DNA from: an uncultured Prochlorococcus sp.
GTDB lineage: Bacteria > Cyanobacteriota > Cyanobacteriia > PCC-6307 > Cyanobiaceae
Assembly: GCA_902527105.1 (NCBI GenBank)
Contig: CABZNT010000004.1
Location: 62,001-126,000, forward strand
Direction: 5' to 3'
Length of the DNA stretch: 64,000 nucleotides
Under the pieces are notes generated by a model. The model ran no database searches. It worked only from the letters and a program-made list of their open reading frames with translations, and was not told where the DNA came from. Positions within the stretch are counted from its first letter, which is position 1, and every line of letters starts with the position of its first letter. Made by a program: the position numbers and the translations under genes. This document shows positions 28,694 through 54,125 of the stretch, in pieces.

Positions 28694-28855
28694 ATGGGTG
28701 AATATATAGACGTCGGAATCCAAACTTCGATTTTACCCTTATCAATTATTCTTTCATCAATTGTACTTGGCATATTCGCATTATTTGGAGAAGAAACAGA
28801 AAATGATGATGATGATTCGGATTCAGGAAGTGGTGGCCTAATGCAACCTATTTAA
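28694..28855 (+). CDS. 53-aa acidic single-pass membrane protein
   Basis: ATG 28694, TAA 28853-28855. One N-terminal helix (TSILPLSIILSSIVLGIFAL), then ENDDDDSDSGSGGLMQPI. The helix + Asp-run + Gly-Gly-Leu-x-x-Pro layout is shared with the island gene at 48280-48462, so the two look like paralogues. Convergent with the next gene, 2 bp apart. Function unknown. Confidence 0.65.
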   Translation: MGEYIDVGIQTSILPLSIILSSIVLGIFALFGEETENDDDDSDSGSGGLMQPI

Positions 28856-41261: not shown

Positions 41262-44200
41262 TTAATAATTATGGATTTCTTGTAGAGAGTAAGTATTAAT
41301 TTTATTACATTGCAAAGCTTTGATCGCCTTAATGGCAGCCTTTGCTCCAGGAATAGTTGTAAAAGTTGGAATATTATATTCTAAAGCAGCACGTCTTAAA
41401 TAAGCATCATCATGAAGAGCCTGTGATCCAATTGGAGTATTAATTATTAATTGAACAAGTCCCGAGCGAATTAGGTCTTCAATATTTGGTCTCCCTTCAT
41501 GAACTTTTAGGACTTCTTCAACTTGAATTCCTAAATTCACCAAATACGCAGCTGTACCTTTTGTTGCGATTAATTTAAATCCTAAAATCAAAAGTTCTCT
41601 AGCAACTTCCTCAAGATTTTTTTTATCTAGGTCATTTGTAGACAAAAAAGCTACTCCTTCTGAAGGAACACCATTACCTGCTGCCAATTCCGACTTGGCA
41701 TAAGCAATTCCAAAATCTTTAGCCAAACCCATTACTTCTCCAGTAGATCTCATTTCAGGCCCAAGTAATGTATCAGATCCAGGAAACCTTTTAAAAGGTA
41801 AAACGGCCTCTTTTACTGCCTGAAATTTTGGAGAAAATTCCTCTGTGAAATTAAGATCTTCTAATGTAAAACCTTGCATTAACTGAGTAGCTAATTTTGC
41901 AACTGGTTTACCTATCGCTTTTGAAACAAATGGAACTGTTCTAGATGCTCTTGGATTTGCTTCAAGAATAAATAATTTATTTTCCTTATTATTTGTATTT
42001 GTTACTGCAAATTGCAAATTAATTAAACCAACAACATTTAATCTTTGTGCAATTAATTTAGTCCAGTTCCTTACATTTTCAATTGTGGATTTTGAAAGAG
42101 AAATGGATGGTAAGCAACAAGCTGAATCTCCTGAATGAATTCCTGCAGGTTCAACATGTTCCATTAAGCCAGCAATTACAACCGATCCCTCTGAATCGCA
42201 TAAAGCATCAACATCTATTTCAATTGCATTATTCAAATATTGATCAAGAAGGATTGGATGATCAGGCGATACCTTAACTGCTTCAGAGATGTATCTCGAT
42301 AATTCATTCTCATCTTTAACAATTTCCATTGCCCTTCCACCTAAAACATAAGAAGGTCTCACAACTAAGGGGAATCCAATATTTTTTGCTACTATTTCTG
42401 CTTCTCTTTGATTACGTGCAATACCATTTAAAGGCTGTCTAATACTTAATTCTTCGAGAATTTTTGTAAATTCCTCTCTATCTTCTGCTAAATCGATAGA
42501 TGTTGGAGAAGTTCCAAGAATTTTTGATCCAGTTTTAATCCCATCATTAGATTTAAGCCATTCAAATAAAGGTAATGATAATTTCAGTGGGGTTTGACCT
42601 CCAAATTGAACAATCAAACCATAAGGATTTTCAGCTTCTATTATGTTGAGCACATCCTCAAAAGTTACAGGCTCAAAATATAAAATATCGCTAGTATCAT
42701 AATCTGTTGATACAGTTTCGGGGTTACTATTAACCATTATTGTTTTATGACCATTTGTAGAAGCTTGATATGATGCATGACAACAACAGTAATCAAATTC
42801 TATTCCCTGACCAATTCTGTTGGGGCCTCCTCCTAAAATCATAATTTTTTTTGATTTACTATTTTTTGAAATCTCGCTATCAAAAATTTGAGAATTAAGA
42901 TTAATGAAAGATTCTTCGTAAGTTGAATAATGATAGGGAGTTGAGGATGAGAATTCTGCTGAACAAGTATCAACAGTTTTATAAATTGGAATTATATCAA
43001 GTTTTTTTCTATATCTTCTTACTTCAAAAAACTCAGAATTAGTTAACTTTGCTATCTGTTGATCTGAAAAGCCTAATTGCTTAGCATGTAACATTAAATC
43101 CCTATCTAGGGTGTAAAGTTCCTTATTTTTCAAAAAATCATTTTCAAAATTAAAGATATTTCGTAATTTTTCAATAAACCATAAATCTATATTTGTAACT
43201 TCTTGAATATATGTATCAGTTTTACCAAGCTGCATAGCTTTTTTAATTAGGAGAATTCTTTCAGATGTAGGGCTTCTTAAACTATTTTTAATTTGACTCT
43301 CATTTTTAAATTCATCTCGTGAATCACATTCCCACCCAAAAACACCTATTTCTAATGACCTTAATGCTTTCTGAAATGATTCTTCAAAAGAACGACCTAT
43401 TGCCATTGACTCACCAACGGATTTCATAGCAGTGCTTAAAGTATTAGAAGAGCCTTTAAATTTTTCAAAGGCAAATCTTGGGATCTTAGTAACTACGTAA
43501 TCAATTGATGGCTCAAAACATGCAGGTGTTTTTTTTGTAATGTCATTAATAATCTCATCAAGCGTGAAGCCAACAGATAATAAAGCTGCAATCTTAGCTA
43601 TGGGGAATCCAGTTGCTTTACTTGCTAAAGCAGAGGATCTACTTACACGGGGATTCATTTCTATGACAATTACTTCTCCATTAGATGGATTTATTGCAAA
43701 TTGAATATTACTGCCTCCTGTTTCAACTCCTACCTCTCTAATGATTTTCAATGACAAATCCCTTAATCTCTGATACTCCTTATCTGTTAAAGTCTGTGCA
43801 GGAGCTACAGTAATCGAATCTCCAGTATGGACACCCATTGGGTCTAAATTTTCAATACTGCAAACTATTACTACATTGTCAGCAGTGTCTCTCATTACCT
43901 CTAGTTCAAACTCTTTCCATCCAATAAGTGATTTTTCAATCAATATTTGATTGCTTGGACTTTCCTCTAAACCTGATTTACACAACTCGACAAATTCTTC
44001 AAGATTAAAAGCAATTCCACCACCAACGCCGCCTAATGTAAATGCAGGCCTTATGATAATAGGATAAGAGTTAATTTTTTTAGATACCTCCCTAGCTTCA
44101 TCGAGGTTAGATGCTATACCAGATGGACAAACATTTACATTTATTTTCTCCATCGATTCTTTAAACAATTTTCTATCTTCAGCTTTATTAATAGCTCTTA

Positions 44201-44558
44201 AATCAGCACCAATTAATTCAATATTATTTTGCTTTAAAAAATCTGACTCTGATAATTTAACCGCAAGATTCAAAGCGGTTTGACCTCCCATAGTGGGAAG
44301 AATCGCGTCAGGTTTTTCTCTTAAAATTATCTGAGAAACAATTTCAGGAGTCAATGGTTCAATATATGTTTTGCTTGCGATCTCAGGATCAGTCATTATT
44401 GACGCTGGATTTGAATTTATTAAAACAATTTCATAACCAGCATTTCTTAAAGCTTTACAAGCTTGAGTGCCAGAGTAATCAAATTCGCATGCTTGTCCTA
44501 TAACAATCGGTCCCGAACCTAGAATAAGAATTTTTTTTAGATCACCTCTTTGAGGCAT
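41262..44558 (-). CDS. carB: Carbamoyl-phosphate synthase, large subunit
   Basis: 1098 aa, with two homologous ATP-grasp halves: N half (~1-400, [20 protein letters not shown]), oligomerisation region, C half (~555-930, [19 protein letters not shown]), and a C-terminal MGS-like allosteric domain (~945-1080, '[16 protein letters not shown]'). Makes carbamoyl phosphate for arginine and pyrimidines using ammonia from CarA. Complete; convergent with the DUF6447 gene. Confidence 0.97.
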
Positions 44559-44666
44559 AATTTAAACCCTTCATTTATCACATGCTACTTATAAATCATC
44601 AGATGTTAATCAACTTACTTGAAAAGCAACATTTGTTTCTATAGTATTGAAAGAAAATAATATTTT

Positions 44667-45305
44667 ATGAGCGAACTTCAGCGACTTAAAAATTTGTTGC
44701 CTCCAGAGAACGAAAGTTGGGTATTTGTTGAAGCTGCTGCTGCTATAGATCCACCCTTAATAACACTTGAGGAAATAGGTCGTGACGAAGTAGAAATTCA
44801 AATAGATTTAGATGAATGGGATAACTTTGCTATTGACCACAGAAATCTATTGTTTTGGCACGAGGTTGGGAAAATTCAAAATGACACAATTCCTAGAGAT
44901 GGATGGGAAATGGCAGCTCTCGCCATAGGACTTGGAGGAGCTATTGGAGAGTTATGGGTGCAAGATGGTTTACTTTTATTACTTGCTCTTGGTTTATCAA
45001 GTTTTGCAGGTTATAGATTATATTTAAAAAATAATTCTGAAAAGAAACTTCAAGATGCTATTTATGCAGATGAAAGAGCTATAGATCTTGCTTGTAGATT
45101 TGGATACAGCATTCCAAATGCTTACAAAAGTCTTGGAGGAGCATTAAAGGAGTTAATAGATAAGACACGAAAAAAGAAAAAAAGGAGTTTTTTTGAAGAT
45201 AGATTAGATGCCTTAAGAAAAAGCGCTGAAAAAGCAAGATCAGAACTATCTCAGCAAGAAGGTTCAGAAAAGTCAGTTTCAAGTGAAAATGTTTATGGAC
45301 AATAA
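44667..45305 (+). CDS. DUF3318 family membrane protein
   Basis: 212 aa. The N-terminal 'MSELQRLKNLLPPENESWV' start, WHEVGKIQNDTIPRDGWE, two helices in ~92-122, and a long basic/acidic C-terminal helix match the cyanobacterial DUF3318 family. Function unknown. The 3' end overlaps rsfS by 11 bp. Confidence 0.8.
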   Translation: MSELQRLKNLLPPENESWVFVEAAAAIDPPLITLEEIGRDEVEIQIDLDEWDNFAIDHRNLLFWHEVGKIQNDTIPRDGWEMAALAIGLGGAIGELWVQDGLLLLLALGLSSFAGYRLYLKNNSEKKLQDAIYADERAIDLACRFGYSIPNAYKSLGGALKELIDKTRKKKKRSFFEDRLDALRKSAEKARSELSQQEGSEKSVSSENVYGQ

Positions 45306-45639
45306 AAGTTTGGTATTAATGGCAGCTAGAGCATGTGATGAAAAAAAAGCAAAAGATATTAAACTTATAAAAATTGACAAAGTATCCTTTATAAGTGAAT
45401 GGATTTTGATTGCAGAAGGATTATCTGATGTACAAGTAAGATCTATAACTAACTCTGTAGAAGGAGAACTTAGAGAGAAGGCTAAAATTGAACCTATACG
45501 AAAAGAAGGGGTTAACGAAGCGAAATGGGCTTTACTTGATTATGGAGATCTGATAGTAAATATTTTTCAACCAGAAATACGAAAATATTATGACCTTGAA
45601 TCTTTCTGGAGTAATGGAGATAATCTTATATTTCCATAA
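45295..45639 (+). CDS. rsfS: Ribosome silencing factor (Iojap)
   Basis: 114 aa from ATG 45295; GTG 45283 and ATG 45289 in the same frame are alternatives. The RsfS core 'KAKDIKLIKIDKVSFISEW' and the C-terminal KWALLDYGDLIVNIFQPEIRKYYDLE are diagnostic. RsfS binds L14 and blocks subunit joining under starvation. In line with DUF3318 and CGLD27 genes. Confidence 0.92.
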   Translation: MDNKSLVLMAARACDEKKAKDIKLIKIDKVSFISEWILIAEGLSDVQVRSITNSVEGELREKAKIEPIRKEGVNEAKWALLDYGDLIVNIFQPEIRKYYDLESFWSNGDNLIFP

Positions 45640-45647
45640 TATATTTT

Positions 45648-46142
45648 ATGAACGAATCTAAGTGTCCTGTCCCTAGAGAGCAACAACCTACGAATGAATT
45701 CATAGAATTATCAAAATCTAAAATTTTTTCTTGGCCAAAAACAAAAAAGTCACTAATTCTTATTTTGATAAAATTTTGGGTAGGAGCTTTTCTTCTATTT
45801 CTCGTCATTTCTTCAGGAAGTGTATATTTTAAAACATCTACTTTAAAATATATTTTATTAAGCTTTTTTAGTAGCTTATCAATACCTCTTTTAATTTCAA
45901 TAAGGTTATATTTAGGATGGAATCATATATTTAATAGATTAATATCTGAAAAAGTTGAATACGAGGAATCCGGATGGTATGACGGTCAAGTATGGGAAAA
46001 GCCTATAGTTTTGAAAGAAAAAGAATCACTTATTGCCTCAATTGAGGTAAAGCCTATTTTAAAAAATTTAATTCAAATTTTTTCTATTATTTCGGTCTTA
46101 GCTTTGTCTGGTATTTTGATTTTTCAATATAACAATTTCTAA
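45648..46142 (+). CDS. CGLD27 family protein (DUF1230)
   Basis: 164 aa. CPVPREQQPTNEFIELSKSKIFSW is the family's N-terminal signature. Two helices (~42-60, ~66-82), a conserved ESGWYDGQVWEKP box and a C-terminal helix follow. Conserved in the green lineage and cyanobacteria and linked to photosynthetic tissue; molecular role unknown. The asparaginase gene starts directly after its stop. Confidence 0.85.
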   Translation: MNESKCPVPREQQPTNEFIELSKSKIFSWPKTKKSLILILIKFWVGAFLLFLVISSGSVYFKTSTLKYILLSFFSSLSIPLLISIRLYLGWNHIFNRLISEKVEYEESGWYDGQVWEKPIVLKEKESLIASIEVKPILKNLIQIFSIISVLALSGILIFQYNNF

Positions 46143-47108
46143 ATGAGTTCTAATTTCAAAAACCTTTACACCTCTAACAATCCTCCCTTACAAGCAACCT
46201 TAATGAGAGGATCAAATATTGAGTCGATCCATAAAATTCATGCTGTTATTACTGATAAAAAAGGGAGGGTTTTAATGTGCGCAGGAAATCCAGAATATAA
46301 AAGTTTCATAAGGTCAGCACTAAAACCGTTTCAAGCGATACCTTTCGTTAGTAGTGGAGCTGCATCAAAAATTAATAATGAATCAAAATCAATTGCTTTA
46401 GCATGCGGGTCACATAGTGGATCAAAGCTTCATTCAAGGGAAGCATTCAAAATTTTATGGGAATATGACATTGACATCAATAATCTTAAATGTCCAAAAT
46501 CTAAGACAAGTCCATTAGAACACAATTGTTCGGGTAAACATGCTGCTTTTTTAGCTACATGCAAAAAAATGAATTGGCCATTAGATAGTTACTTAAAGGG
46601 GGATCATCCTCTTCAAAAAGAAATATTCAGAATTGTTTCTGAATTACTTGAGATCCCGTCATCTGAAATAAACGCAGAACGCGATGATTGTGGTGCACCC
46701 ACTCTTTATTTAAAACTATTAGAAATGTCGAGGTTGTATTCACTTCTGAGCAGTTCCGAAAATGCTGAATTAGAACAAATCAGTAGAGCGATGATAATAA
46801 ACCCAACAATGATAAGTGATAATAATAAATTTGATACAGAAATAATTAAAGCTTCTCATGGGAACGTTATAGGTAAAGGTGGAGCCGAGGGAATACAGTG
46901 TCTATGTAAAGTAAATGAAGGGATAGGTATAGCTTTAAAAGTAGAAGACGGTTCAAAGAGAGCAAAGCATGCTGTTAGTCTTCACTTACTAAAACAGTTG
47001 GAATGGATATCTGACTTAAGAATTCAAGACATCGAAGAAAAGGTGTTTAATTTTTCTGAAGGAGTGCGACTTGAAGTTAAAGGTAAAGTAAAATTCCAAG
47101 AATCCTAA
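46143..47108 (+). CDS. L-asparaginase (asparaginase II family)
   Basis: 321 aa. ALACGSHSGSKLHSREAF, LEHNCSGKHAAFLATC, ERDDCGAPTLYL and GKGGAEGIQCLC are the conserved blocks of the COG4448-type asparaginase II family found in Rhizobium and cyanobacteria. Hydrolyses asparagine to aspartate and ammonia. Its 3' end is the last core gene before the tRNA-fMet and the island. Confidence 0.88.
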   Translation: MSSNFKNLYTSNNPPLQATLMRGSNIESIHKIHAVITDKKGRVLMCAGNPEYKSFIRSALKPFQAIPFVSSGAASKINNESKSIALACGSHSGSKLHSREAFKILWEYDIDINNLKCPKSKTSPLEHNCSGKHAAFLATCKKMNWPLDSYLKGDHPLQKEIFRIVSELLEIPSSEINAERDDCGAPTLYLKLLEMSRLYSLLSSSENAELEQISRAMIINPTMISDNNKFDTEIIKASHGNVIGKGGAEGIQCLCKVNEGIGIALKVEDGSKRAKHAVSLHLLKQLEWISDLRIQDIEEKVFNFSEGVRLEVKGKVKFQES

Positions 47109-47152
47109 AAAACAGAAAAAATAACCCTTGCAGATGTATGCTATGTATATGA

Positions 47153-47229
<77 letters not shown>

Positions 47230-47234
47230 TTTTG

Positions 47235-47258
47235 AAGCAGCTTCACAGCTGCTTTTTT
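47235..47258 (+). terminator. tRNA-fMet terminator
   Basis: AAGCAGCT (47235-47242), loop TCAC, AGCTGCTT (47247-47254), then T's. Eight perfect pairs. A near-identical hairpin follows the tRNA remnant at 53623. Confidence 0.9.
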
Positions 47259-47432
47259 AGTGTTTGCAATTAGTTTCATATAGTTATATCCCTGAATATC
47301 TTAAGAAAACTACTTCAAAAAAACCAAAAACTCTTTTTAAAAATCATTTAAATATTGACTGATAATACTAAATTCGTGAAATCAGGATATCAATCAGAAA
47401 AAATGATTAAGGGATTCGGATAATTTTTTCAT
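47259..47432. other. Left island margin, no gene seen
   Basis: AT-rich. The first ~20 bp still resemble the sequence beyond the right tRNA remnant (AGTRTTTGC...TTAGTT). Nothing else recognised. Confidence 0.4.
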
Positions 47433-47814
47433 TTATTCCCAAGTTTTCATATCAGTAGTTCCTTGTGATCTTTGCATCCAAGAATATTTCCAAGTACCAT
47501 TTACATTTTTAAAAATACACGTGTAAGTTGAAAGATCTTTATTTTGATTCCCTTTATAACTAAAGATTTCATTTAAGGTAAAAACTGCGTAAGCTATCTC
47601 ACCGTAAATTTCAATCTTGTGGGTTTTGATTAGTTCTGATGATTCTGCAACTAAGTCTTTACTATCAAACATTCCCACTAATCCCTTTGAAGATTGGATT
47701 TCCACTCGGTCTTACAGCCAAAAAATCCTCAGTTACGTTTGGTATTAGAAAAGAAGAATCTTCACTGGTTGCATAACCATTAATTAAATCTTCTATGGCT
47801 TTAGTATTTGACAT
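47433..47814 (-). pseudogene. Frameshifted NTF2/SnoaL-like protein gene
   Basis: Reading from ATG 47812-47814, one frame encodes MSNTKAIEDLINGYATSEDS...FLAVRPSGNPI. It then runs into a TGA, while the family-like continuation (SSKGLVGMFDSKDLVAESSEL...YAVFTLNEIFSYKG...WMQRSQG) is in the adjacent frame to the stop at 47433. One base missing near 47690 would explain this. The joined product (~126 aa) has the cone-shaped NTF2-like pattern with WKYSWMQR near the end. An ORF finder sees only the 90-codon 3' part from a GTG. Sequencing error cannot be excluded. Confidence 0.75.
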
Positions 47815-47841
47815 TAAAAAAGGAGCTAATTTCTCCTTAGT

Positions 47842-47852
47842 TTAGATCGACT
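47842..47852. repeat. TTAGATCGACT island repeat, copy 1
   Basis: Extended match TTTAGATCGACTTTCAAT at 47841-47858, directly after a hairpin AAGGAG...CTCCTT. Other copies lie at 50664, 50869 and 51232. Confidence 0.7.
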
Positions 47853-48038
47853 TTCAATTGAAGTCTTATAAAACTACTTGACCTAAATCTTTAAAAATTT
47901 TTGCGCAGATACACAATAAAATACAATTATGTAACAGTAACGTATAGATTTAATATAAATACAAGTATATTTGACTAATTTCTTTACATTAATTAATATT
48001 AATGTTACATTAGTTTACATAAATTACTTTTCATAAAA

Positions 48039-48146
48039 ATGACCCCAGAAGCAGAAAGATTTAACGGTTGGGCAGCAATGCTCGGTTTCGTTGCAGCTGT
48101 TGGCGCATACGTAACAACTGGTCAAATTATTCCTGGTTGGTTCTAA
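48039..48146 (+). CDS. High-light-inducible protein (HLIP), 35 aa
   Basis: One-helix chlorophyll-binding protein with AERFNGWAAMLGF followed by the helix and the TTGQIIPGWF tail. The ExxNGRxAM motif has Trp instead of Arg, a known short-form variant. HLIPs bind chlorophyll and carotenoid at photosystem assembly intermediates and protect under high light. The stop overlaps the next hli start (TAATG). The 190 bp upstream are AT-rich and probably hold the operon promoter. Confidence 0.92.
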   Translation: MTPEAERFNGWAAMLGFVAAVGAYVTTGQIIPGWF

Positions 48147-48280
48147 TGAAAAACACAAAAACAGTTGAGAAGGAAAAGGTTATAGCTGAGAAGCTTAACG
48201 GCAGATTTGCAATGATGGGTTTTATTGCTCTTGTTGGCGCTTATCTAACAACTGGTCAAATAATTCCTGGCTTTGTGTAA
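48146..48280 (+). CDS. High-light-inducible protein (HLIP), 44 aa
   Basis: ATG 48146 overlaps the previous TAA by one base. Canonical motif AEKLNGRFAMMGF, helix, and TTGQIIPGFV. Longer in-frame starts (e.g. 48068) lie inside the previous hli gene and are not credible. Its C-terminal ~40 residues are nearly the same as in the hli at 50307, so the two are recent duplicates. Its stop overlaps the next start (TAATG). Confidence 0.94.
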   Translation: MKNTKTVEKEKVIAEKLNGRFAMMGFIALVGAYLTTGQIIPGFV

Positions 48281-48462
48281 TGCTTGAGGCAGGAATTAAC
48301 ACTTGTATTAACACTATACTTTTTCCTTTTATGCCAGTCATAACATTATTTATTGTTAGTGCATTAATGTTGAGTGATTTGCCATGGAATGATGATGATG
48401 ACGATGATGATGGCGGTGGATTAATCTCCCCGGTATATAACTACGTTCCCCAAGGAGCTTAG
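48280..48462 (+). CDS. 60-aa acidic single-pass membrane protein
   Basis: The start overlaps the hli stop by one base. One helix (FPFMPVITLFIVSALML), then WNDDDDDDDGGGLISPV and a short tail. It shares the helix + Asp-run + GGL architecture with the core gene at 28694-28855. Coupling to hli genes hints at a role near photosystem membranes, but this is inference. Confidence 0.72.
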   Translation: MLEAGINTCINTILFPFMPVITLFIVSALMLSDLPWNDDDDDDDGGGLISPVYNYVPQGA

Positions 48463-48477
48463 AGGATATATATCAAA

Positions 48478-48591
48478 ATGGTTTTCATCTCATCTTTATT
48501 TAACACAGTCCCTTCAAGTGCTAAAGACCTTTTAGAGTTTGGTTTCTTTCTTACTGTGGGTTTTACAGCAGGAAAAGTAGGACTCTTATGA
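48478..48591 (+). CDS. 37-aa membrane microprotein
   Basis: ATG 48478, TGA 48589-48591, 15 bp after the previous gene and overlapping the next in ATGA. MVFISSLFNTVPSSAKDLLE then a hydrophobic FGFFLTVGFTAGKVGLL. Position inside the tight operon is the main evidence. Confidence 0.55.
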   Translation: MVFISSLFNTVPSSAKDLLEFGFFLTVGFTAGKVGLL

Positions 48592-48674
48592 AAACATATC
48601 TAATTGCCATATCACTATTTGGCATCGCAATAATAACAACTGCGATAGCACCAAGTATTGCTTACGCACTATAA
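48588..48674 (+). CDS. 28-aa membrane microprotein
   Basis: ATG 48588 in an ATGA overlap. Almost entirely hydrophobic (YLIAISLFGIAIITTAIAPS) and ending in IAYAL; it reads like a bare signal anchor. One of the smallest plausible genes in the window. Confidence 0.5.
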   Translation: MKTYLIAISLFGIAIITTAIAPSIAYAL

Positions 48675-48709
48675 AAATTTATTCACTCTTATTAACGAAC
48701 AATTAAAAA

Positions 48710-48838
48710 ATGGAAAACTCAAAACCAACTTATTGGCAAAATGCCGAGAGAACCAATGGAAGAATGGCAATGATGGGTTTATTCGCATTGGTTGTAAACT
48801 ACGGTCTTTTTGGCTGGATCATCCCAGGTATTTTTTAA
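48710..48838 (+). CDS. High-light-inducible protein (HLIP), 42 aa
   Basis: ATG 48710. YWQNAERTNGRMAMMGLF carries the canonical NGRxAM chlorophyll-binding motif; the helix then reads ALVVNYGLFGWIIPGIF. More divergent from the other island HLIPs, so not a recent duplicate. The next gene starts 1 bp after its stop. Confidence 0.92.
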   Translation: MENSKPTYWQNAERTNGRMAMMGLFALVVNYGLFGWIIPGIF

Positions 48839-48839
48839 A

Positions 48840-49112
48840 ATGAATATAGATATTTTCTTAATCTCTTTTTTTACATATCTATTAGTGCCAGTGGTAATGG
48901 TTGCTAAGGGTAGAAAAAAAAGGGGGCATTTTAAAATGTCTTATTTCGCAAAAAATAATTATATAAAATATGACGAATGGTTTGATGAGAATATTTCTCC
49001 ACTTGATTTAAAATTTTATTACGAAGAAAAACGATTCTCAAATACTCTTCATGAAAAATTTTATTTATTGTCAACCTCAAAAATATTCATTGGGGGTTCT
49101 GAAAAAAAATGA
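48840..49112 (+). CDS. 90-aa membrane-anchored hypothetical protein
   Basis: The true start is ATG 48840, right after the hli stop; the same frame opens earlier inside the hli gene. The N-terminal helix (IFLISFFTYLLVPVVMVA) is followed by a basic KGRKKRGH and a soluble tail with KYDEWFDENISPLDLKFYY. Last gene of the seven-gene operon. Not recognised. Confidence 0.65.
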   Translation: MNIDIFLISFFTYLLVPVVMVAKGRKKRGHFKMSYFAKNNYIKYDEWFDENISPLDLKFYYEEKRFSNTLHEKFYLLSTSKIFIGGSEKK

Positions 49113-49189
49113 TTAATATAAAATATTTTTTTTAATTACTGCTCCTAATAATAATTAAAGAAAAATAAGGTAAGTGATTATTTTATCAA

Positions 49190-49214
49190 CAAAAAAAGGA
49201 CGTAAGATACGTCC
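49190..49214 (-). terminator. Minus-strand terminator hairpin
   Basis: On the minus strand GGACGTA-TCT-TACGTCC (49214-49198) is followed by seven T's (49197-49191). Perfect 7-bp stem with 3-nt loop. It would end a leftward transcript from the candidate RNA region or the minus-strand microORFs. Confidence 0.6.
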
Positions 49215-49254
49215 GATTAAAAGCTTGATAATCCCCATCACCCAGCCTTTTTAA

Positions 49255-49379
49255 AATAATAGCACTACATATGGTGTTTGTATGTAATAAATTTTACCTA
49301 TTGATGGGGTTGTAAGTTTCCATTTATTTTGTCATGATAGGAATCCCCATCACCTAGGCTCGCAAGAGTCTTTTTTTTT
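49255..49379 (+). ncRNA. Candidate small RNA A with CCCCATCACC-terminator module
   Basis: Non-coding. GATGGGG (49313-49319) can pair with CCCCATC (49345-49351). The latter continues into CACCT and a terminator hairpin AGGCTC-GCAA-GAGTCT (49356-49371) with a nine-T tail. A second CCCCATCACC occurs at 49233-49242. The same decamer precedes the terminator of candidate RNA B at 57990, and both candidates contain GCACTACA. The 5' end is a guess. Confidence 0.5.
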
Positions 49380-49505
49380 GCTTGTAATAACAAATAAGTG
49401 AAGGATTGAAAAAACAACAAAAGAAACATATAACAGTCTCTCTAGATACACAATAATTCCATCACAAAGTATTAGTATGCCTTTACTGAAGTTAAGGTAT
49501 TTAAT

Positions 49506-49760
49506 ATGTCACTAAAAAATCAAACTAATGTTATTTATCCATGGGATTATCAAATAGGAGATGATAATTTCCAATTTGAGCCTTGGATTCTAAAGAAAGG
49601 AAAGGAATATGTAACTATTGAGAAAAACATAGATAACAAAGGATTTTTTTATTTACAAAAGAATGAAGAAAAACGTCTTTCTCTTAACGCTTTACAAACA
49701 AAATCTACATTTAACCAATTAATGAATTTTGGATATAAGCTACGAAAAAGTAAGTTCTAA
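49506..49760 (+). CDS. 84-aa hypothetical protein
   Basis: ATG 49506. Soluble, probably beta-rich in the middle (PWILKKGKEYVTIEKNIDNKG), ending in basic GYKLRKSKF. No domain recognised. Preceded by ~125 bp without genes after candidate RNA A. Confidence 0.55.
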   Translation: MSLKNQTNVIYPWDYQIGDDNFQFEPWILKKGKEYVTIEKNIDNKGFFYLQKNEEKRLSLNALQTKSTFNQLMNFGYKLRKSKF

Positions 49761-49799
49761 TTTTCTAAAACTACATTTTATTGAGATATAACTTGGATT

Positions 49800-49919
49800 T
49801 TAGATTATTAATAAGAATCGGAGTCCTAACGGTAACCACAGACATAGAAGCATCAATAGTAAAAGTGTAATAGCATGCACATTTGGAATGTAATGCTCTT
49901 TAAAAACTTTAGCCTTCAT
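49800..49919 (-). CDS. Putative 39-aa membrane microprotein
   Basis: ATG at 49917-49919, TAA at 49800-49802. MKAKVFKEHYIPNVHAIT followed by one helix (LLLLMLLCLWLPLGL). Lies 3 bp downstream of another minus-strand microORF, suggesting a pair. Confidence 0.45.
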   Translation of the reverse strand: MKAKVFKEHYIPNVHAITLLLLMLLCLWLPLGLRFLLII

Positions 49920-49922
49920 GAT

Positions 49923-50012
49923 CTATCTAGCTTTCATTAATTTTATCTCTCTTCTAATTAGTAAAGCTATAACAACTACACACATATTCATAAGAAATAC
50001 GTCTAATGGCAT
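49923..50012 (-). CDS. Putative 29-aa microprotein
   Basis: ATG at 50010-50012, TAG at 49923-49925. A short hydrophobic stretch (VFLMNMCVVVIALLI) and a basic tail RREIKLMKAR. Supported by spacing only. The 295 bp between 50013 and the next hli hold no further gene that I can support, and probably contain its promoter. Confidence 0.35.
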   Translation of the reverse strand: MPLDVFLMNMCVVVIALLIRREIKLMKAR

Positions 50013-50306
50013 TAAATAAAAATGTATTTAATTAATTGATAGCAAGAATGCTAGTCTGCAAATATTAAGATTTACTGATAGAGAGAAAAAACATCAAACA
50101 TGGGTGAAAAAAGATGCAAAAAGTTAATTATTTGTTGAAAGAAATTAAATTTTAGAAAGGGTAACTAAATAAAGAATATTGATGAATTTGACTCATAACT
50201 GTGACAGTTTATTTTAATTTATTTAAAATCTAAGATAAATAGTAATATTACTTTACAGTAAGTAATATAAATGTTAAATTTGTAAATGTAGGATTCCATT
50301 CTTCTT

Positions 50307-50462
50307 ATGAACTCAAAAAAAGTTAAAGTTCTCGAAACAAAAACAGTTGAGAAGGAAAAAGTTGTTGCTGAAAAGCTCAATGGCAGATTTGCCATGATTG
50401 GCTTCATAGCTGCTATTGGTGCTTACTTAACAACAGGTCAAATTATTCCTGGGTTCGTCTAA
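50307..50462 (+). CDS. High-light-inducible protein (HLIP), 51 aa
   Basis: ATG 50307. The N-terminal extension MNSKKVKVLETKTVEKEK precedes the canonical AEKLNGRFAMIGF, helix and TTGQIIPGFV. Closely matches the hli at 48146 over the whole C-terminal part, including the TVEKEK lead-in, indicating duplication inside the island. The next microORF starts immediately after its stop. Confidence 0.94.
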   Translation: MNSKKVKVLETKTVEKEKVVAEKLNGRFAMIGFIAAIGAYLTTGQIIPGFV

Positions 50463-50573
50463 ATGGACTTTATTTCTAAACGCCAAGGATATGTTCCTTT
50501 TAAGGTAGTTCCTTACATTTTCTTTATTTCTGTAATTTTAAGTATCACTACAGCAACAGAAGTGTTCGTATAA
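50463..50573 (+). CDS. 36-aa membrane microprotein behind hli
   Basis: ATG 50463 directly follows the hli TAA. A basic start MDFISKRQGYVPFK and one helix (VVPYIFFISVILSITTA). Parallel to the small membrane genes that follow hli genes in the first operon. Confidence 0.55.
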   Translation: MDFISKRQGYVPFKVVPYIFFISVILSITTATEVFV

Positions 50574-50641
50574 ATTTTCAACAAACATATTCGTGAGAGC
50601 TTGCTTCTAGAAATATAATCGAGCTTTTTTTTCTTTCTGTG

Positions 50642-50722
50642 ATGAGTGTGTTCATAAAAAAGTTTAGATCGACTATCAATCAAAAAAAGCTAGAACGAGA
50701 ATTATTAGCTATTAATAAATAA
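50642..50722 (+). CDS. Putative 26-aa microprotein containing the repeat
   Basis: ATG 50642, TAA 50720-50722. MSVFIKKFRSTINQKKLERE...; the FRSTIN part is encoded by the TTAGATCGACT repeat. It may be a real short peptide, or the repeat may simply be open here. The other copies are in frames with nearby stops, which favours a DNA- or RNA-level role. Confidence 0.3.
   Translation: MSVFIKKFRSTINQKKLERELLAINK
50664..50674. repeat. TTAGATCGACT island repeat, copy 2
   Basis: Extended match TTTAGATCGACTATCAAT, 50663-50680. No strong hairpin directly upstream. Confidence 0.7.
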
Positions 50723-50731
50723 AGGATACTA

Positions 50732-50830
50732 ATGAAGCTAAAAATCAATATAAATTTTATAGAAAAATATTTATCTTATTTAATAAACGATATTGAATAT
50801 AAGCGTATTACAAAATTTAAAAAAATATGA
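50732..50830 (+). CDS. Putative 32-aa microprotein
   Basis: ATG 50732 with AAAGGA 6-11 bp upstream, the clearest Shine-Dalgarno among the island microORFs. Lys/Ile/Tyr-rich (MKLKININFIEKYLSYL...). Weak evidence otherwise. Confidence 0.35.
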   Translation: MKLKININFIEKYLSYLINDIEYKRITKFKKI

Positions 50831-50868
50831 TTTAATGGCGGACGTTGACTATCAAAGATTTCATCATT

Positions 50869-50879
50869 TTAGATCGACT
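50869..50879. repeat. TTAGATCGACT island repeat, copy 3
   Basis: Extended match TTTAGATCGACTGTTAAT, 50868-50885. A GACTATCAA string 20 bp upstream resembles the tail of copy 2. Confidence 0.7.
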
Positions 50880-50971
50880 GTTAATTAATTATTTCCCTTA
50901 ATAACAACTTAATATAAGTAATTATCAAATTAAATTTATGCTTAAATATTTCAGTTCTCATTAACTTACAA

Positions 50972-51190
50972 ATGTATTATTCAGAAACTAAAGTGATAAT
51001 GGGTGGTCTAGCCCATGTTCCAATATTAATCTTCATAGTAAATTTTATTAAAGGAAAGTTTGAATCTATAGCATCAAAAGTAGTTGAAGTTAAAGCGGAA
51101 GAGCCAAAGGTAAAATTAGTTGAAGTTAAAGAAGAGGAAGTAAAAGCGGAAGAGGTAAACGCAAGTGAAGTTAAAGAAGAAGCAGAATAA
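50972..51190 (+). CDS. 72-aa membrane protein with Val-Glu-Val-Lys repeats
   Basis: ATG 50972. One helix (GGLAHVPILIFIVNFI), then a repetitive charged tail made of VEVKxEE / VKAEE units (about four imperfect repeats), ending KEEAE. The tail is probably an extended or helical charged segment. Downstream hairpin and repeat copy 4 follow. Unknown function. Confidence 0.6.
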   Translation: MYYSETKVIMGGLAHVPILIFIVNFIKGKFESIASKVVEVKAEEPKVKLVEVKEEEVKAEEVNASEVKEEAE

Positions 51191-51231
51191 CAGGAAGAAA
51201 TAATTAAGAAAGAGGTTTTAATCCCTCTACG

Positions 51232-51242
51232 TTAGATCGACT
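51232..51242. repeat. TTAGATCGACT island repeat, copy 4
   Basis: Extended match GTTAGATCGACTTTAAAT, 51231-51248. As in copy 1 it follows a small hairpin, AGAGG...CCTCT (51211-51228). Confidence 0.7.
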
Positions 51243-51295
51243 TTAAATCAATTAAAAGTGCGAATAAAGTGTGAATAGAAAAATTTTTTTTTAAA

Positions 51296-51439
51296 TTACC
51301 TTTTATAGATAAATTTTTGTATGTCTTCGAATAGATTAGATTCTGATTTAAAAAATCCGTTACTTTTTAAATAAGATTTTCCTTTTTCTATATTTTCAAT
51401 TCTTTTTTCATAAGAATTTTCATCTAAATTTTTTTGCAT
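51296..51439 (-). CDS. Putative 47-aa microprotein
   Basis: ATG at 51437-51439, TAA at 51296-51298. Hydrophilic (MQKNLDENSYEKRIENIEKG...FEDIQKFIYKR), likely helical. Not recognised. From 51440 to 51702 nothing else is seen except the probable hli promoter region. Confidence 0.45.
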   Translation of the reverse strand: MQKNLDENSYEKRIENIEKGKSYLKSNGFFKSESNLFEDIQKFIYKR

Positions 51440-51702
51440 AAAAACTAGTCGGAATCTTATTCTGAATAATGCTCACAAAAAAGTGGTTACCTTAAATACA
51501 AAATTTAAATTCTTTTTTGAATTGCTTCTTATTCAAACTAAAGATCTAATAAAAAAATTTCTTTCTTAAATTTCGAAAATTATTAATGAAAAATAAATTA
51601 AAAATAAAATTCTTAGAAAAAATGTAATTTAGGTAGGAAACACTACATCAATTACCTATTAGGAATAATTAACTTGTAAATATAAATCTATCTCGCATAA
51701 TT

Positions 51703-51831
51703 ATGGAATTCTTTAAAAAATTCATGACCGAAAAAGCTGAAAAGCTTAACGGTAAAGCTGCAATGCTTGGAATGTTTGCTCTAATAGGGGCTTACTATTT
51801 TACAGGTCAAATTGTTCCAGGTATTTTCTAA
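51703..51831 (+). CDS. High-light-inducible protein (HLIP), 42 aa
   Basis: ATG 51703. MEFFKKFMTEKAEKLNGKAAMLGMF, with Lys in place of Arg in the NGRxAM motif, then helix and FTGQIVPGIF. A single-gene unit. Five HLIPs in this island show three motif variants (Arg, Trp, Lys). Confidence 0.92.
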   Translation: MEFFKKFMTEKAEKLNGKAAMLGMFALIGAYYFTGQIVPGIF

Positions 51832-51894
51832 GAAAAAGCTTATTAAGACTTTTGGGGGGGGTTGGTAATTTTCAGCCTCTTTTTTATTTAATGA

Positions 51895-52032
51895 CTAAGA
51901 ATCTCTTGATAACTTGTTTTTCATATCTTCAATATTCTTGATTAATTTTTCTATCCATTCTGTATTGTCATCTTGTTTTAGATATGTAATTTTTGGTTGA
52001 TTAATTTCAAGTGTTTCGAAATCTCCACTCAT
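51895..52032 (-). CDS. Putative 45-aa soluble microprotein
   Basis: ATG at 52030-52032, TAG at 51895-51897. MSGDFETLEINQPKITYLKQ then an amphipathic helix (EWIEKLIKNIEDMKNKL). Not recognised. 52033-52259 shows no gene. Confidence 0.45.
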   Translation of the reverse strand: MSGDFETLEINQPKITYLKQDDNTEWIEKLIKNIEDMKNKLSRDS

Positions 52033-52259
52033 AAATTCTCCTTTGTATATTTGTTTAGCTACATCTTTGTTCTAATTGATTTGACTAAAATAGTGCGTAT
52101 CTAATGTGTGCGGTTTGAGGAACATTTAGGTACGGAAAGAGGTATGTTTTTTTAGTCATTTAAATCTATGGCTGACCTAAATTAGAAATATGGTTGTCAT
52201 GAGTCGGTTGCATTGCTACAACTGAAATCAACCATAAACTTTAAATTACATTTAATAAA

Positions 52260-52442
52260 ATGACTTACTACAGTTGCTTTGATCAAAAAGGTAACATAAT
52301 TGCTCGCTGTCAGACTAAAGAAGATATAGATGTTCTTAAGAAAATGGGCAGACCAATAATGGAAATAAAAGAAATGAAAAAAGAGGAATCAGTTGTTTGT
52401 TCTTTAACTGGTAGTCCATCCGATTACAACGAAGATTATTAA
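52260..52442 (+). CDS. 60-aa hypothetical protein
   Basis: ATG 52260. MTYYSCFDQKGNIIARCQTK, a short beta-hairpin-like start, then a helix (EDIDVLKKMGRPIMEIKEM) and an acidic end. The composition is that of a real small soluble protein. The next microORF starts 5 bp downstream. Confidence 0.6.
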   Translation: MTYYSCFDQKGNIIARCQTKEDIDVLKKMGRPIMEIKEMKKEESVVCSLTGSPSDYNEDY

Positions 52443-52446
52443 GAGT

Positions 52447-52578
52447 ATGACTCAAAGATCACTTCAATTAAATCAACATGGAAGATCAGTAGTTTTTTTG
52501 TTGGTTGCATTGAATAGCATTTGTACTTTCTTTTCTACTTTTGAAAAAGCATTAACTGATCGCGAAAGAGCGAGATAA
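52447..52578 (+). CDS. 43-aa membrane microprotein
   Basis: ATG 52447. Polar start MTQRSLQLNQHGRS, one helix (VVFLLVALNSICTFFSTF) and a charged end ALTDRERAR. Probably cotranscribed with the 60-aa gene and ended by the terminator at 52631. Confidence 0.55.
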   Translation: MTQRSLQLNQHGRSVVFLLVALNSICTFFSTFEKALTDRERAR

Positions 52579-52630
52579 AAATATTTAGTTATTTGTGGAT
52601 TAACAGTCAATCAATAAAATTTAAGACATA

Positions 52631-52658
52631 AAAAAAGACCCTTTTAGAGGTCTTTTTT
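52631..52658. terminator. Bidirectional terminator
   Basis: AAAAAAGACC (52631-52640), loop CTTTTAGA, GGTCTTTTTT (52649-52658): perfect 10-bp stem with U-run in either direction. Confidence 0.85.
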
Positions 52659-53008
52659 AAATGGTGACGACAGAAAGGAGATCTATTTAATAATCAGATT
52701 AAGAATTTTCTTAGAAATTAGTTTTGAAAGTAAAAGTGATTACTCACATCTTCATGCTTTACAAACGACTTTATTTTTAAGATAGTTCAGAATTAATCCC
52801 GAAAGTTTAATTTCTGATCATTTAACTTTCTTTCCGTAAAGGTTAGTTAAGTTAATTTACCTTGGTGTTTCTGACCAGGGACTAGTGAAGATCTAGTTGG
52901 TCAACCTTAGTCGAGTCGATCACCAGAACTGTCGTATAAATAAATTAATCGGTCTCAAATATTTTGCATGAATCCTTAAGATTGATTTAATCATGATTAA
53001 TTAAATCT
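52659..53008. other. 350-bp gene-free stretch with structured element
   Basis: No ORF of note. A stem at 52873-52902 pairs GACCA with TGGTC and ACTAG with CTAGT, with a GGG bulge and 7-nt loop; a GC-richer stretch (CGAGTCGATCACC) follows. Possibly a small RNA or a protein-binding structure near the island end. Confidence 0.35.
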
Positions 53009-53158
53009 TTAATAATCAGACCACATCATCTCGTAGCTATCAAATTTATTTTTTAACTTTGCTGCCTTATGAATTAAAGCCACCGCTTCTTTTCTTCCAG
53101 TAGCATTATTAGCTTGGAGTATAAGGTCAGCATATTTTTTTACGATTTTCTCTTTCAT
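53009..53158 (-). CDS. 49-aa soluble microprotein
   Basis: ATG at 53156-53158, TAA at 53009-53011. MKEKIVKKYADLILQANNATG then RKEAVALIHKAAKLKNKFDSYEMMW, mostly helical. Good coding character for its size. Not recognised. Confidence 0.55.
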   Translation of the reverse strand: MKEKIVKKYADLILQANNATGRKEAVALIHKAAKLKNKFDSYEMMWSDY

Positions 53159-53356
53159 AGTTTAGATTAAATAAATACCGTTTTTAAATCTGCCAGGAGT
53201 AGGAGATCTACTGCTTGAGATAAGGAATCAACGGTAAAACCTCAGAGTAAACAAATTGGAACGGGTTCACTCGTAGGATTTATTTATAAACGATCAAATT
53301 GATTTTTGTAGGTATTTATTACTACATTGTTCTCAAATAAAGACGGAATTTTTATC

Positions 53357-53377
53357 AACCCGAATTTTTTTCGGGTT
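53357..53377. other. Perfect inverted repeat AACCCGAA
   Basis: AACCCGAA, five T's, TTCGGGTT: 8-bp perfect stem. It could be a terminator for leftward or rightward transcripts, or part of the recombination region with the repeats that follow. Confidence 0.5.
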
Positions 53378-53397
53378 AAAGAAAATTGCCTGATTTT

Positions 53398-53522
53398 GTT
53401 ACACGTGTAATATTGGTATCCTTAAAATCACTTGATATATCTTTTAATTTTAAAAAGTAGTTGTAACACGTGTAACATCGAAAAACTGTTAAAGGTGGTG
53501 TAACAAGCCGTGTAACATCAGA
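53398..53522. repeat. GTGTAACA repeat cluster near the right island end
   Basis: Three related elements: GTTACACGTGTAAT (53398-53411), GTAACACGTGTAACATCG (53463-53480), and GTAACAAGCCGTGTAACATC (53502-53521 region). The first two are built on the palindrome ACACGTGT; the last two share GTGTAACATC. They lie 45-170 bp inside the right att-like repeat, where arm-type integrase or excisionase sites are found in other elements. Confidence 0.5.
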
Positions 53523-53565
53523 AGTTAAACTCATTACTATCAATGGTTTACAAGGAAAATAAGTA

Positions 53566-53617
53566 GGGCTCATAACCCGAAGGTCGGAAGTTCAAATCTC
53601 CCCCCCCCCCGCCACCA
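53566..53617 (+). repeat. Right island repeat: decayed 3' half of tRNA-fMet
   Basis: Identical to 47182-47215 for 34 bp. Then an eleven-C run replaces TTCTCCCC, followed by GCCACCA. It lacks the 5' half of a tRNA and so is not functional. It is probably the original tRNA 3' end displaced by integration. Confidence 0.88.
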
Positions 53618-53622
53618 TATAG

Positions 53623-53647
53623 AAGCAGCTTCAAAGCTGCTTTTTTT
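53623..53647 (+). terminator. Duplicate of the tRNA-fMet terminator
   Basis: AAGCAGCT-TCAA-AGCTGCTT plus T's, differing from 47235 by one loop base. Confidence 0.85.
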
Positions 53648-53720
53648 AGTATTTGCGTTAGTTCCAGTAATAATAAAAATAAAGATTATAACTTCTTTAC
53701 TAAAAGAAGTTTATTAAAAA

Positions 53721-53822
53721 TCATTTGAGATCTTTTTGAATAGAGAATTTCAAGTCAACTCTAACTACTAGACCAGTAATTATAAAAAGTATCCCAATGT
53801 ATGAATTCAAAGATAGATCCAA
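53721..53822 (-). CDS. Putative 33-aa membrane microprotein
   Basis: TTG start at 53820-53822, TGA at 53721-53723. One helix (YIGILFIITGLVVRV) and a basic tail. TTG start and small size make this tentative. The rest of 53648-53978 shows nothing else. Confidence 0.3.
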   Translation of the reverse strand: MDLSLNSYIGILFIITGLVVRVDLKFSIQKDLK

Positions 53823-53978
53823 AATATAAAATTTTATTTCTAACTAAATCTTAGCTCACAATTCATATCTATTAAATACGTCGAAAAAAGAATTTAAAAA
53901 AATCTAAATTTTGAACATTTACATCTTTAATAAGCAATTTAATAAAGTAGAGTTAAATTAACTAATATAAAAAATTAC

Positions 53979-54125
53979 ATGCAGAACTTGCTACAGCGTG
54001 ATTTAGGTTCAAGCATGTTATCAATAGCAGTCATTTTAGGATGGTTAGGACTGTTTTTTGTATTCTTGAGAGTATTAACAATTTCAATAAAAAGACTCCT
54101 TGAAACTGTTTTCAAAAAATCGTAA
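53979..54125 (+). CDS. 48-aa membrane microprotein
   Basis: ATG 53979, TAA 54123-54125. Polar start MQNLLQRDLGSSM, one helix (AVILGWLGLFFVFLRVL) and a basic amphipathic tail. Not recognised. Just outside the island. Confidence 0.5.
   Translation: MQNLLQRDLGSSMLSIAVILGWLGLFFVFLRVLTISIKRLLETVFKKS

Follow-up and report, generated by a model that had tools for sequence, protein, structure and literature searches.

High light inducible (hli) genes are standard in Prochlorococcus and cyanophage genomes, and the tiny genes interleaved with them are hypothetical or go unmentioned in the portions of the literature open to us. The closest described small partners of Hlips, the proteins encoded by hli genes, come from Synechocystis, where Psb35 (Ssl2148) is reported to stabilize both the CP47 module and the HliA/B of this module, and Psb34 (Ssl1498) is thought to compete with HliA/B (PMC9458560, PMC9145668). 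SliP4 (HliR1), a tiny membrane-bound protein of 37 amino acids (aa), is high-light induced and acts in cyclic electron flow in Synechocystis. RpaB bound to a high light regulatory 1 (HLR1) element in the core promoter represses hli-type genes of Synechocystis in low light and departs in high light (PMC6331805). The multi-copy hlis of Prochlorococcus MED4 are located in islands and thought to be phage-derived (PMC2663038), and hli5, 6, 7, 11, 14, 17 and 19 of MED4 have a light enrichment that is much higher in infected than in uninfected cells (PMC5082946). All of these statements follow excerpts of the respective reports. Here we describe an array of hli genes and interleaved small open reading frames (ORFs) in a 64,000-nucleotide (nt) stretch of an uncultured Prochlorococcus sp., referred to as the window, which belongs to contig C4 of a 1.45-Mb genome in 39 contigs. 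The locus is best read as an Hlip array that was shaped by phages, is probably under high-light control and also encodes small membrane accessory proteins.

Layout and coding support of the hli array

According to the ORF listing of the window, three hli genes and four other ORFs occupy positions 48039-49112 (Table 1). The layout given in the initial annotation, seven ORFs connected by two TAATG overlaps, one ATGA overlap and a 1-nt gap (between hliC and o90), was recovered at all coordinates; further gaps are found between o60 and o37 (15 nt) and between o28 and hliC (35 nt). All three hli products match PHROG_178, high light inducible protein (E = 3.8e-19 for hliA, 9.8e-19 for hliB and 3.1e-16 for hliC), and hliC alone among them passed the Pfam cut-off of PF00504. 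The chlorophyll-ligand motif of Hlips consists of E, N and R. These residues are present in hliB (AEKLNGRFAM) and hliC (AERTNGRMAM); the hliA motif is atypical (AERFNGWAAM), with W replacing R. On these grounds, hliA, hliB and hliC can be assigned to the Hlips, or small chlorophyll a/b-binding (CAB)-like proteins.

Inspection of o60 and o37 revealed no CAB motif, and neither the non-hli ORFs of the window nor the related small ORFs gave a credible Pfam or NCBIfam family. The best 19-residue Kyte-Doolittle mean was 2.4 for o60, 2.1 for o28, 2.3 for the 31-aa part of o90 and 1.4 for o37. The 58-aa half of o90 is not hydrophobic (0.3), so the earlier description of the non-hli members as one-helix proteins applies to most of them, which have one hydrophobic stretch, and does not extend to this half. 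A structure model of o60 alone, uninformative on partners, consisted of a single helix (residues 2-32) and a low-confidence acidic tail, with a mean predicted local distance difference test score (pLDDT) of 70.5 and a predicted template modeling score (pTM) of 0.35.

The last member had been taken for a single 90-aa protein and has to be read as a fusion. Read from the o90 ATG, the ORF is 90 codons long in the window only; in the other 61 of 62 copies, which were recovered from two overlapping sets and probably include some genomes twice, its first part ends after 14-37 codons (29-31 in 57 copies). An A-run within o90 has one base fewer than in L133, L137, L144 and L145, the four closest among 15 aligned relatives (L and G numbers are our labels for loci and genomes). 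The shorter run indicates that a 31-aa ORF was fused to a 58-aa ORF, and the start of the second half, 48936, coincides with that of the PHROG_17144 match (residue 33). A separate downstream ORF of 57-61 aa with its own ATG is present in 11 of the 13 aligned relatives that share the downstream DNA, the other two being L118 and L130. Different downstream DNA, containing a 59-aa ORF, is found in L122 and L127, and L136 has an early break in the first ORF. The A-run difference may be either a real frameshift or an assembly error.

Table 1. Features of the window; positions are counted from its first nucleotide.
Feature	Position	Strand	Description	Source
D-tail paralogue	28694..28855	+	53-aa paralogue of o60, beside a 1169-aa ORF	
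tRNA-Met	47153..47229	+	left island end	
Candidate promoter	47983..48011	+	TTTACA-17-TACATT; TG before second hexamer; second hexamer overlaps HLR1 box	
Putative HLR1 box	48004..48021	+	RpaB-type, -35 to -18 from the hliA ATG	pattern scan
hliA	48039..48146	+	35 aa	ORF list, PHROG
hliB	48146..48280	+	44 aa; TAATG with hliA	ORF list, PHROG
o60	48280..48462	+	acidic-tail (D-tail) one-helix protein; TAATG with hliB; PHROG_7843	
o37	48478..48591	+	family motif FF..G.TAG; PHROG_17067	
o28	48588..48674	+	tiny hydrophobic ORF; ATGA overlap with o37	
hliC	48710..48838	+	42 aa	ORF list, Pfam, PHROG
o90	48840..49112	+	31-aa one-helix ORF fused to 58-aa ORF via shorter A-run	
58-aa ORF	48936..49112	+	inside o90; PHROG_17144 family	
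Terminator-like hairpin	49356..49381	+	followed by T run; 3' of the array	
Second small array	50307..50573	+	hliD (51 aa), then directly a 36-aa ORF	
tRNA-Met copy	53563..53656	+	3' part of tRNA-Met and following sequence; right island end	

Association of the small genes with hli in hosts and viruses

With o60 as the query, 48 loci were found in 47 genomes of named relatives, mostly Prochlorococcus single cells. One of them (L160) belongs to the cultured strain MIT 9302. Gene order, overlaps and spacing were repeated across these loci, which sets the non-hli ORFs apart from chance. An hli gene lies immediately 5' of o60 in 47 of them, with the exact TAATG in 46; o37 follows o60 in 37, and an hli gene was located within 500 nt downstream in 37 of the 47 loci with room for it. 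Among 151 genomes of the genus, o60 had a strong match (E < 1e-25) in 33 and responded in 105 when weak, paralogue-level matches were counted. The o37 family was matched in 119 of the 151 and in all of the 51 good genomes, 26 of which contain a match close to the o37 of the window. The initial annotation had called for a synteny search and would have been refuted by a lack of conservation of the non-hli ORFs everywhere. This outcome did not arise: the o60 and o37 families adjoin hli genes both in other strains and in cyanophages.

Codon statistics support host coding of hliA, hliB, o60 and hliC and, more weakly, of o37. The ratio of non-synonymous to synonymous substitution rates (dN/dS) was 0.07, 0.14, 0.14, 0.12 and 0.38, respectively, with a third-position excess in all five, and the length of o60 is constant at 60 codons in 77 of 78 copies. 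In viral sequences, which are related and do not represent independent events, dN/dS was 0.13 for o37, 0.24 for a 24-aa ORF preceding it and 0.14-0.31 for the D-tail genes; this supports coding of the o60 and o37 families in viruses. Among eight small-ORF comparisons, o28 resembled a 26-aa ORF of phage P-SSM7 (shuffle p = 0.0004) and a 28-aa ORF of P-SSM2 (p = 0.0076), and most of the others gave no shuffle signal.

Queries from the window matched 9 phage records with o60 and 25 with o37. With phage-type queries a D-tail gene was detected in 20 named phages, one of which (metaG-MbCM1) is known from a metagenome, and in some single-cell virus records. All 20 named phages had an hliA-like match on the same strand within 0.8 kb; in total, hliA-like matches occurred in 518 phage records, 391 of them Synechococcus phages. 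We read eight phage hli regions (P-SSM2, P-HM2, P-TIM68, S-SSM7, P-SSM7, S-SSM6b, P-RSM4 and S-SSM5). In each of these a D-tail ORF lies 3' of the hlis. Six regions (P-HM2, P-SSM2, P-TIM68, S-SSM7, P-SSM7 and S-SSM6b) contain an o37 homologue, directly preceded in every case by an ORF of 24-27 aa. Many of the small ORFs in the phage hli regions are unannotated, and the arrays adjoin psbA, ferredoxin and heme oxygenase genes.

A further 289 viral loci were fetched by D-tail or o37, not by hli, with single phage proteins as queries; a D-tail profile scan of viral contigs gave at least two loci. Counting only ORFs flanked by 1 kb or more in both directions, an hli gene was present on the same strand within 1 kb of 149 of 152 distinct viral D-tail ORFs and 126 of 127 distinct viral o37 ORFs. 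D-tail ORFs were accompanied by o37 in 118 of 152 cases and o37 by a D-tail ORF in 127 of 127, an association that is partly built in, since both served as queries. A D-tail ORF was located at most 400 nt upstream of 169 out of 192 distinct viral o37 ORFs. An ORF ending at the o37 start, most often of 24 aa, was found in 76 of these 169 (with a 4-nt overlap in 70) and, by the same test, was absent in 93. Judged by the linkage of hli, D-tail and o37, the array of the window would be a cyanomyovirus-type hli module. On sequence evidence, o60 and o37 travel with hli in hosts and cyanomyoviruses and are under purifying selection.

Beyond the genus, the D-tail profile matched 22 of 194 genomes of the class, comprising all 21 listed from the family of the window and one other, weak match (E = 0.002). 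The o37 profile matched 12 of the 194, in four genera, all within the same family. In a genome of another genus (G175, locus L054) the order hli-hli-hliA-hli-o37-33-aa ORF-D-tail is found within 1.6 kb. Relatives of o37 were also seen in other settings. Seven loci (L104, L106, L108, L110, L111, L114 and L115) carry a mini-operon of a 64-aa ORF and a 34-aa o37-like ORF, in several cases with an additional ORF of 30-34 aa; the N-terminus of the 64-aa ORF (IAFACLTGFTATTGLP) is closer to a 24-aa ORF of P-HM2 than all 5000 shuffles. A solitary 34-aa o37 paralogue, whose role might reveal that of o37, is present in L103, L105, L107, L109, L112, L113 and L117, and at several of these loci it has a neighboring ORF near by, presumably an adenine phosphoribosyltransferase from its looks. 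Weak matches of the 64-aa ORF to CFEM (E = 0.018) and of the 53-aa D-tail paralogue to PsbW (E = 0.042) were dismissed.

Putative control box and island setting

The sequence GTTACATTAGTTTACATA before hliA agrees with the HLR1 pattern without a mismatch. Among the 32 named loci with an hliA start and enough upstream sequence, 24 had no mismatch, all at -35, seven had one and one had two. As a control, 20,000 stretches of 80 nt were drawn at random from these loci, and 210 of them had 0 or 1 mismatches. Four loci without the same hliA start, scored singly, had 1, 1, 3 and 3 mismatches. HLR1 followed by 10-40 nt and an hliA start occurs in 58 of the 151 genomes of the genus, and the backwards pattern in none of the 151. 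The array therefore carries, as far as its sequence tells, a high-light-type control box placed as in the RpaB-repressed hli genes of Synechocystis, and an HLR1 box this close before the first gene would fit an RpaB/HLR1 high-light regulon. The candidate promoter overlapping the box belongs to a type of pattern that is no commoner in the window than in shuffles.

Viral arrays have similar sites. HLR1-like boxes with at most two mismatches were detected before the first hli of 104 of 191 viral arrays, versus 2 of 518 other ORFs. On the same 191 stretches, control patterns had 0 matches when reversed, 12 as the complement, 13 with a longer spacer and 19 without a spacer. Five of the eight phages read (P-HM2, P-SSM2, P-TIM68, S-SSM7 and P-SSM7) had at most two mismatches, and P-RSM4, S-SSM6b and S-SSM5 had 3-5. 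The site in S-SSM7 and P-SSM7 begins around -54 with TTGACA and could represent an ordinary -35 element.

The array is located between a tRNA-Met and a partial copy that covers the 3' part of this tRNA plus the terminator (87% over 94 nt, E = 2e-27; repeats D4 and D5). The enclosed 6.4 kb contain this array, hliD with its 36-aa ORF and an hli-like ORF at 51703-51831. No ORF of more than 100 aa was found between the two tRNA copies (the longest has 100 aa), which means that no intact integrase lies inside. The tRNA region was visible in the fetched stretch of only two of the 48 named loci (L133 and L141), so the array is not always at this place; G258 and G106 have the o60 array elsewhere.

Further small features were noticed around the array. 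At 49303-49381, GATGGGG/CCCCATC arms are followed by the terminator hairpin, and a second copy of AATCCCCATCACC lies near 49229; this may be a small RNA. The arms and hairpin had no Rfam match, and Rfam over 44000-54000 returned the tRNA plus one match under its gathering score. Tandem hydrophobic ORFs of 39 and 29 aa are located on the minus strand (49800-49919 and 49923-50012); L114 and L115 have closely similar ORFs in tandem in the vicinity of hli and o37-like genes. A 72-aa ORF at 50972-51190, shared by several named relatives, combines a single hydrophobic stretch with an acidic tail made of KVEEVKAEE-type repeats.

Proposed function, rival explanations and known systems

We propose, with a probability of roughly 0.55, that the locus is a light-stress array in which three one-helix Hlips are encoded together with small, mostly one-helix accessory proteins that aid Hlips on photosystem intermediates. 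Light or infection would overreduce the electron chain, RpaB would leave the box and the polycistron would be transcribed. Overlapping stop and start codons would couple translation, bringing Hlips and accessory helices together in the thylakoid, where the single accessory helices would be inserted. The Hlips would pair, bind pigment and quench, and the accessory helices, with the acidic-tail protein leading, may dock or stabilize them on photosystem assembly or repair intermediates, a role that would resemble that of Psb35 and Psb34 in Synechocystis. Phages would carry a similar set to sustain photosynthesis during infection, and at least o60 probably returned from phage to host. A physical complex of the small proteins with Hlips, which the initial annotation suggested might act in photosystem protection or assembly, is put forward here as a hypothesis; the interpretation in that annotation is thus supported in part, for the conservation beside hli genes and the high-light-type box. 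More tentatively, at slightly less than even odds, marine picocyanobacteria and their myoviruses may share a Hlip partner set consisting of an acidic-tail protein, a 31-38-aa FF..G.TAG protein and helices of 24-28 aa. Many viruses would then use a host-type HLR1 box, with RpaB, the redox-sensing regulator of the host itself, switching on viral photoprotection, and at least the acidic-tail partner would have been handed back into mobile host hli arrays.

Several observations weigh against this proposal. The window of 64 kb is expected to contain 0.90 HLR1 matches with at most one mismatch by chance, and the HLR1 argument consequently rests on position and conservation. The set of genes is not fixed: in 11 of the 48 named loci, no o37 was detected downstream of o60. 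Three of these (L120, L121 and L147) kept the downstream hli, and L154-L156, L159, L161-L163 and L165 had neither by the same test. In hosts, o28 had a dN/dS of 0.93 and no third-position excess and is thus not supported as a selected protein, and equal support for all non-hli ORFs had to be rejected because o28 fails this host codon test. Most of the 518 hli-bearing phage records gave no D-tail match with the queries used. D-tail paralogues occur away from hli genes as well, for example beside the 1169-aa ORF of the window, and a different genus in the family has one in two genomes (L055 and L056) near a 359-aa ORF, which from our own reading of the sequence we take to be PsbA-like. The 34-aa o37 paralogue is mostly found without a nearby hli. 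Finally, the 90-row D-tail tree was built from few columns and rooted arbitrarily, and the branch joining the host o60 clade to the phage rows next to it is weak (82/77).

In this tree, all 36 host o60 rows form one clade (support 99/96), and other host D-tail paralogues group with the other phage type. The topology supports, without proving it, a single phage-to-host transfer of o60. Such a transfer would fit the suggested phage origin of the multi-copy MED4 hlis in islands (PMC2663038, in excerpt).

In view of the paralogues away from hli genes, D-tail and o37 proteins could also function independently of Hlips. The small proteins could be co-regulated with Hlips but act elsewhere, for example at NDH-1, cytochrome b6f or photosystem I, in a SliP4-like manner, and the missing CAB motif in o60 and o37 points in the same direction. 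We consider this unlikely in view of the near-complete hli linkage in viral contigs and the direct TAATG coupling of o60 to hli in hosts. Improbable, too, is that the host non-hli ORFs are decaying leftovers of a phage cassette, carried along with useful hlis. This would account for the dN/dS of 0.93 in o28, the absence of o37-o28 from three arrays that keep hliC, the frame-breaking length variants of o28 and o90 and the island setting, but it conflicts with the dN/dS of 0.14 and the 60 codons of o60 in 77 of 78 copies, as well as with the third-position excess in o37. A third possibility is that the microproteins are phage peptides without a link to photosynthesis that act on membranes in lysis, in excluding other phages or as toxins. 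This would explain tiny hydrophobic proteins in phages and a mobile island, but is very improbable given their location in hli arrays beside psbA, ferredoxin and heme oxygenase, the D-tail genes in all 21 genomes of the family seen and the HLR1 box on the host array.

Viral hli linkage, the selection signature and the HLR1 boxes point to a co-regulated unit. Two findings are new here: microprotein families that accompany hli genes in hosts and viruses alike, and HLR1-like boxes in front of viral arrays. Searches of open-licence full text in PubMed Central, judged from listings and excerpts, turned up no account of either the D-tail or the o37 family, nor of cyanophage HLR1 boxes. These families offer concrete candidate partners for studying the placement of Hlips on photosystems and the control of host photosynthesis by phages.

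Compared with known systems, the locus has counterparts at several levels. Two genomes (1,657,990 bp and 1,704,176 bp), presumably MED4 and MIT9515, each contain two arrays of the type hliA-69/72aa-86/90aa-hliC. In three of the four copies hliC is followed by a 29-32-aa one-helix ORF and a 59-aa ORF, and L502 has another ORF instead. One copy per genome lies ~3 kb from the homologue of the window gene at 46143-47108, indicating the same chromosomal place as the array of the window. Both types share their ends, hliA first and hliC followed by the small one-helix ORF, whereas the window has hliB-o60-o37-o28 in place of two longer hlis. The array is thus a variant of the known multi-copy hliA...hliC arrays of the genus. 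The island resembles tRNA-bounded islands of Prochlorococcus, with tRNA-Met at one end and a 3' copy at the other, and differs from them in having no intact integrase.

The cyanomyovirus hli regions have, like the window, a run of hlis followed by a D-tail ORF (8/8), an o37 homologue (6/8) and TAATG/ATGA-type overlaps. In the viruses the small ORF of 24-27 aa precedes o37, whereas in the window o28 follows it and no small ORF overlaps the o37 start by ATGA. The phage sets also hold further ORFs, several of them unannotated, unlike the array of the window.

With regard to small proteins, a comparison with solved chains, a weak test for short helices, gave six matches for the D-tail profile (best E = 0.1, a large structural phosphoprotein), none for o37 of the window and two weak rhodopsin matches for a composite o37-like query. 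SliP4 resembles o37 in its tiny size and in the membrane location and high-light induction presumed for o37, and is set apart by distribution; an identity of the two is not supported, as the o37 profile is confined to the family of the window (12 of 194 genomes, four genera). No sequence relation of o60 or o37 to Psb34 and Psb35 was found in this comparison, made through solved chains only, and homology of o60 to either is not supported in the absence of a credible match there. The likeness we propose for o60 and the accessory helices is one of role: according to the excerpts cited above, Psb34 and Psb35 are small proteins that modulate or stabilize the binding of Hlips to CP47 complexes, and the small proteins of this array may serve their Hlips in a similar way.

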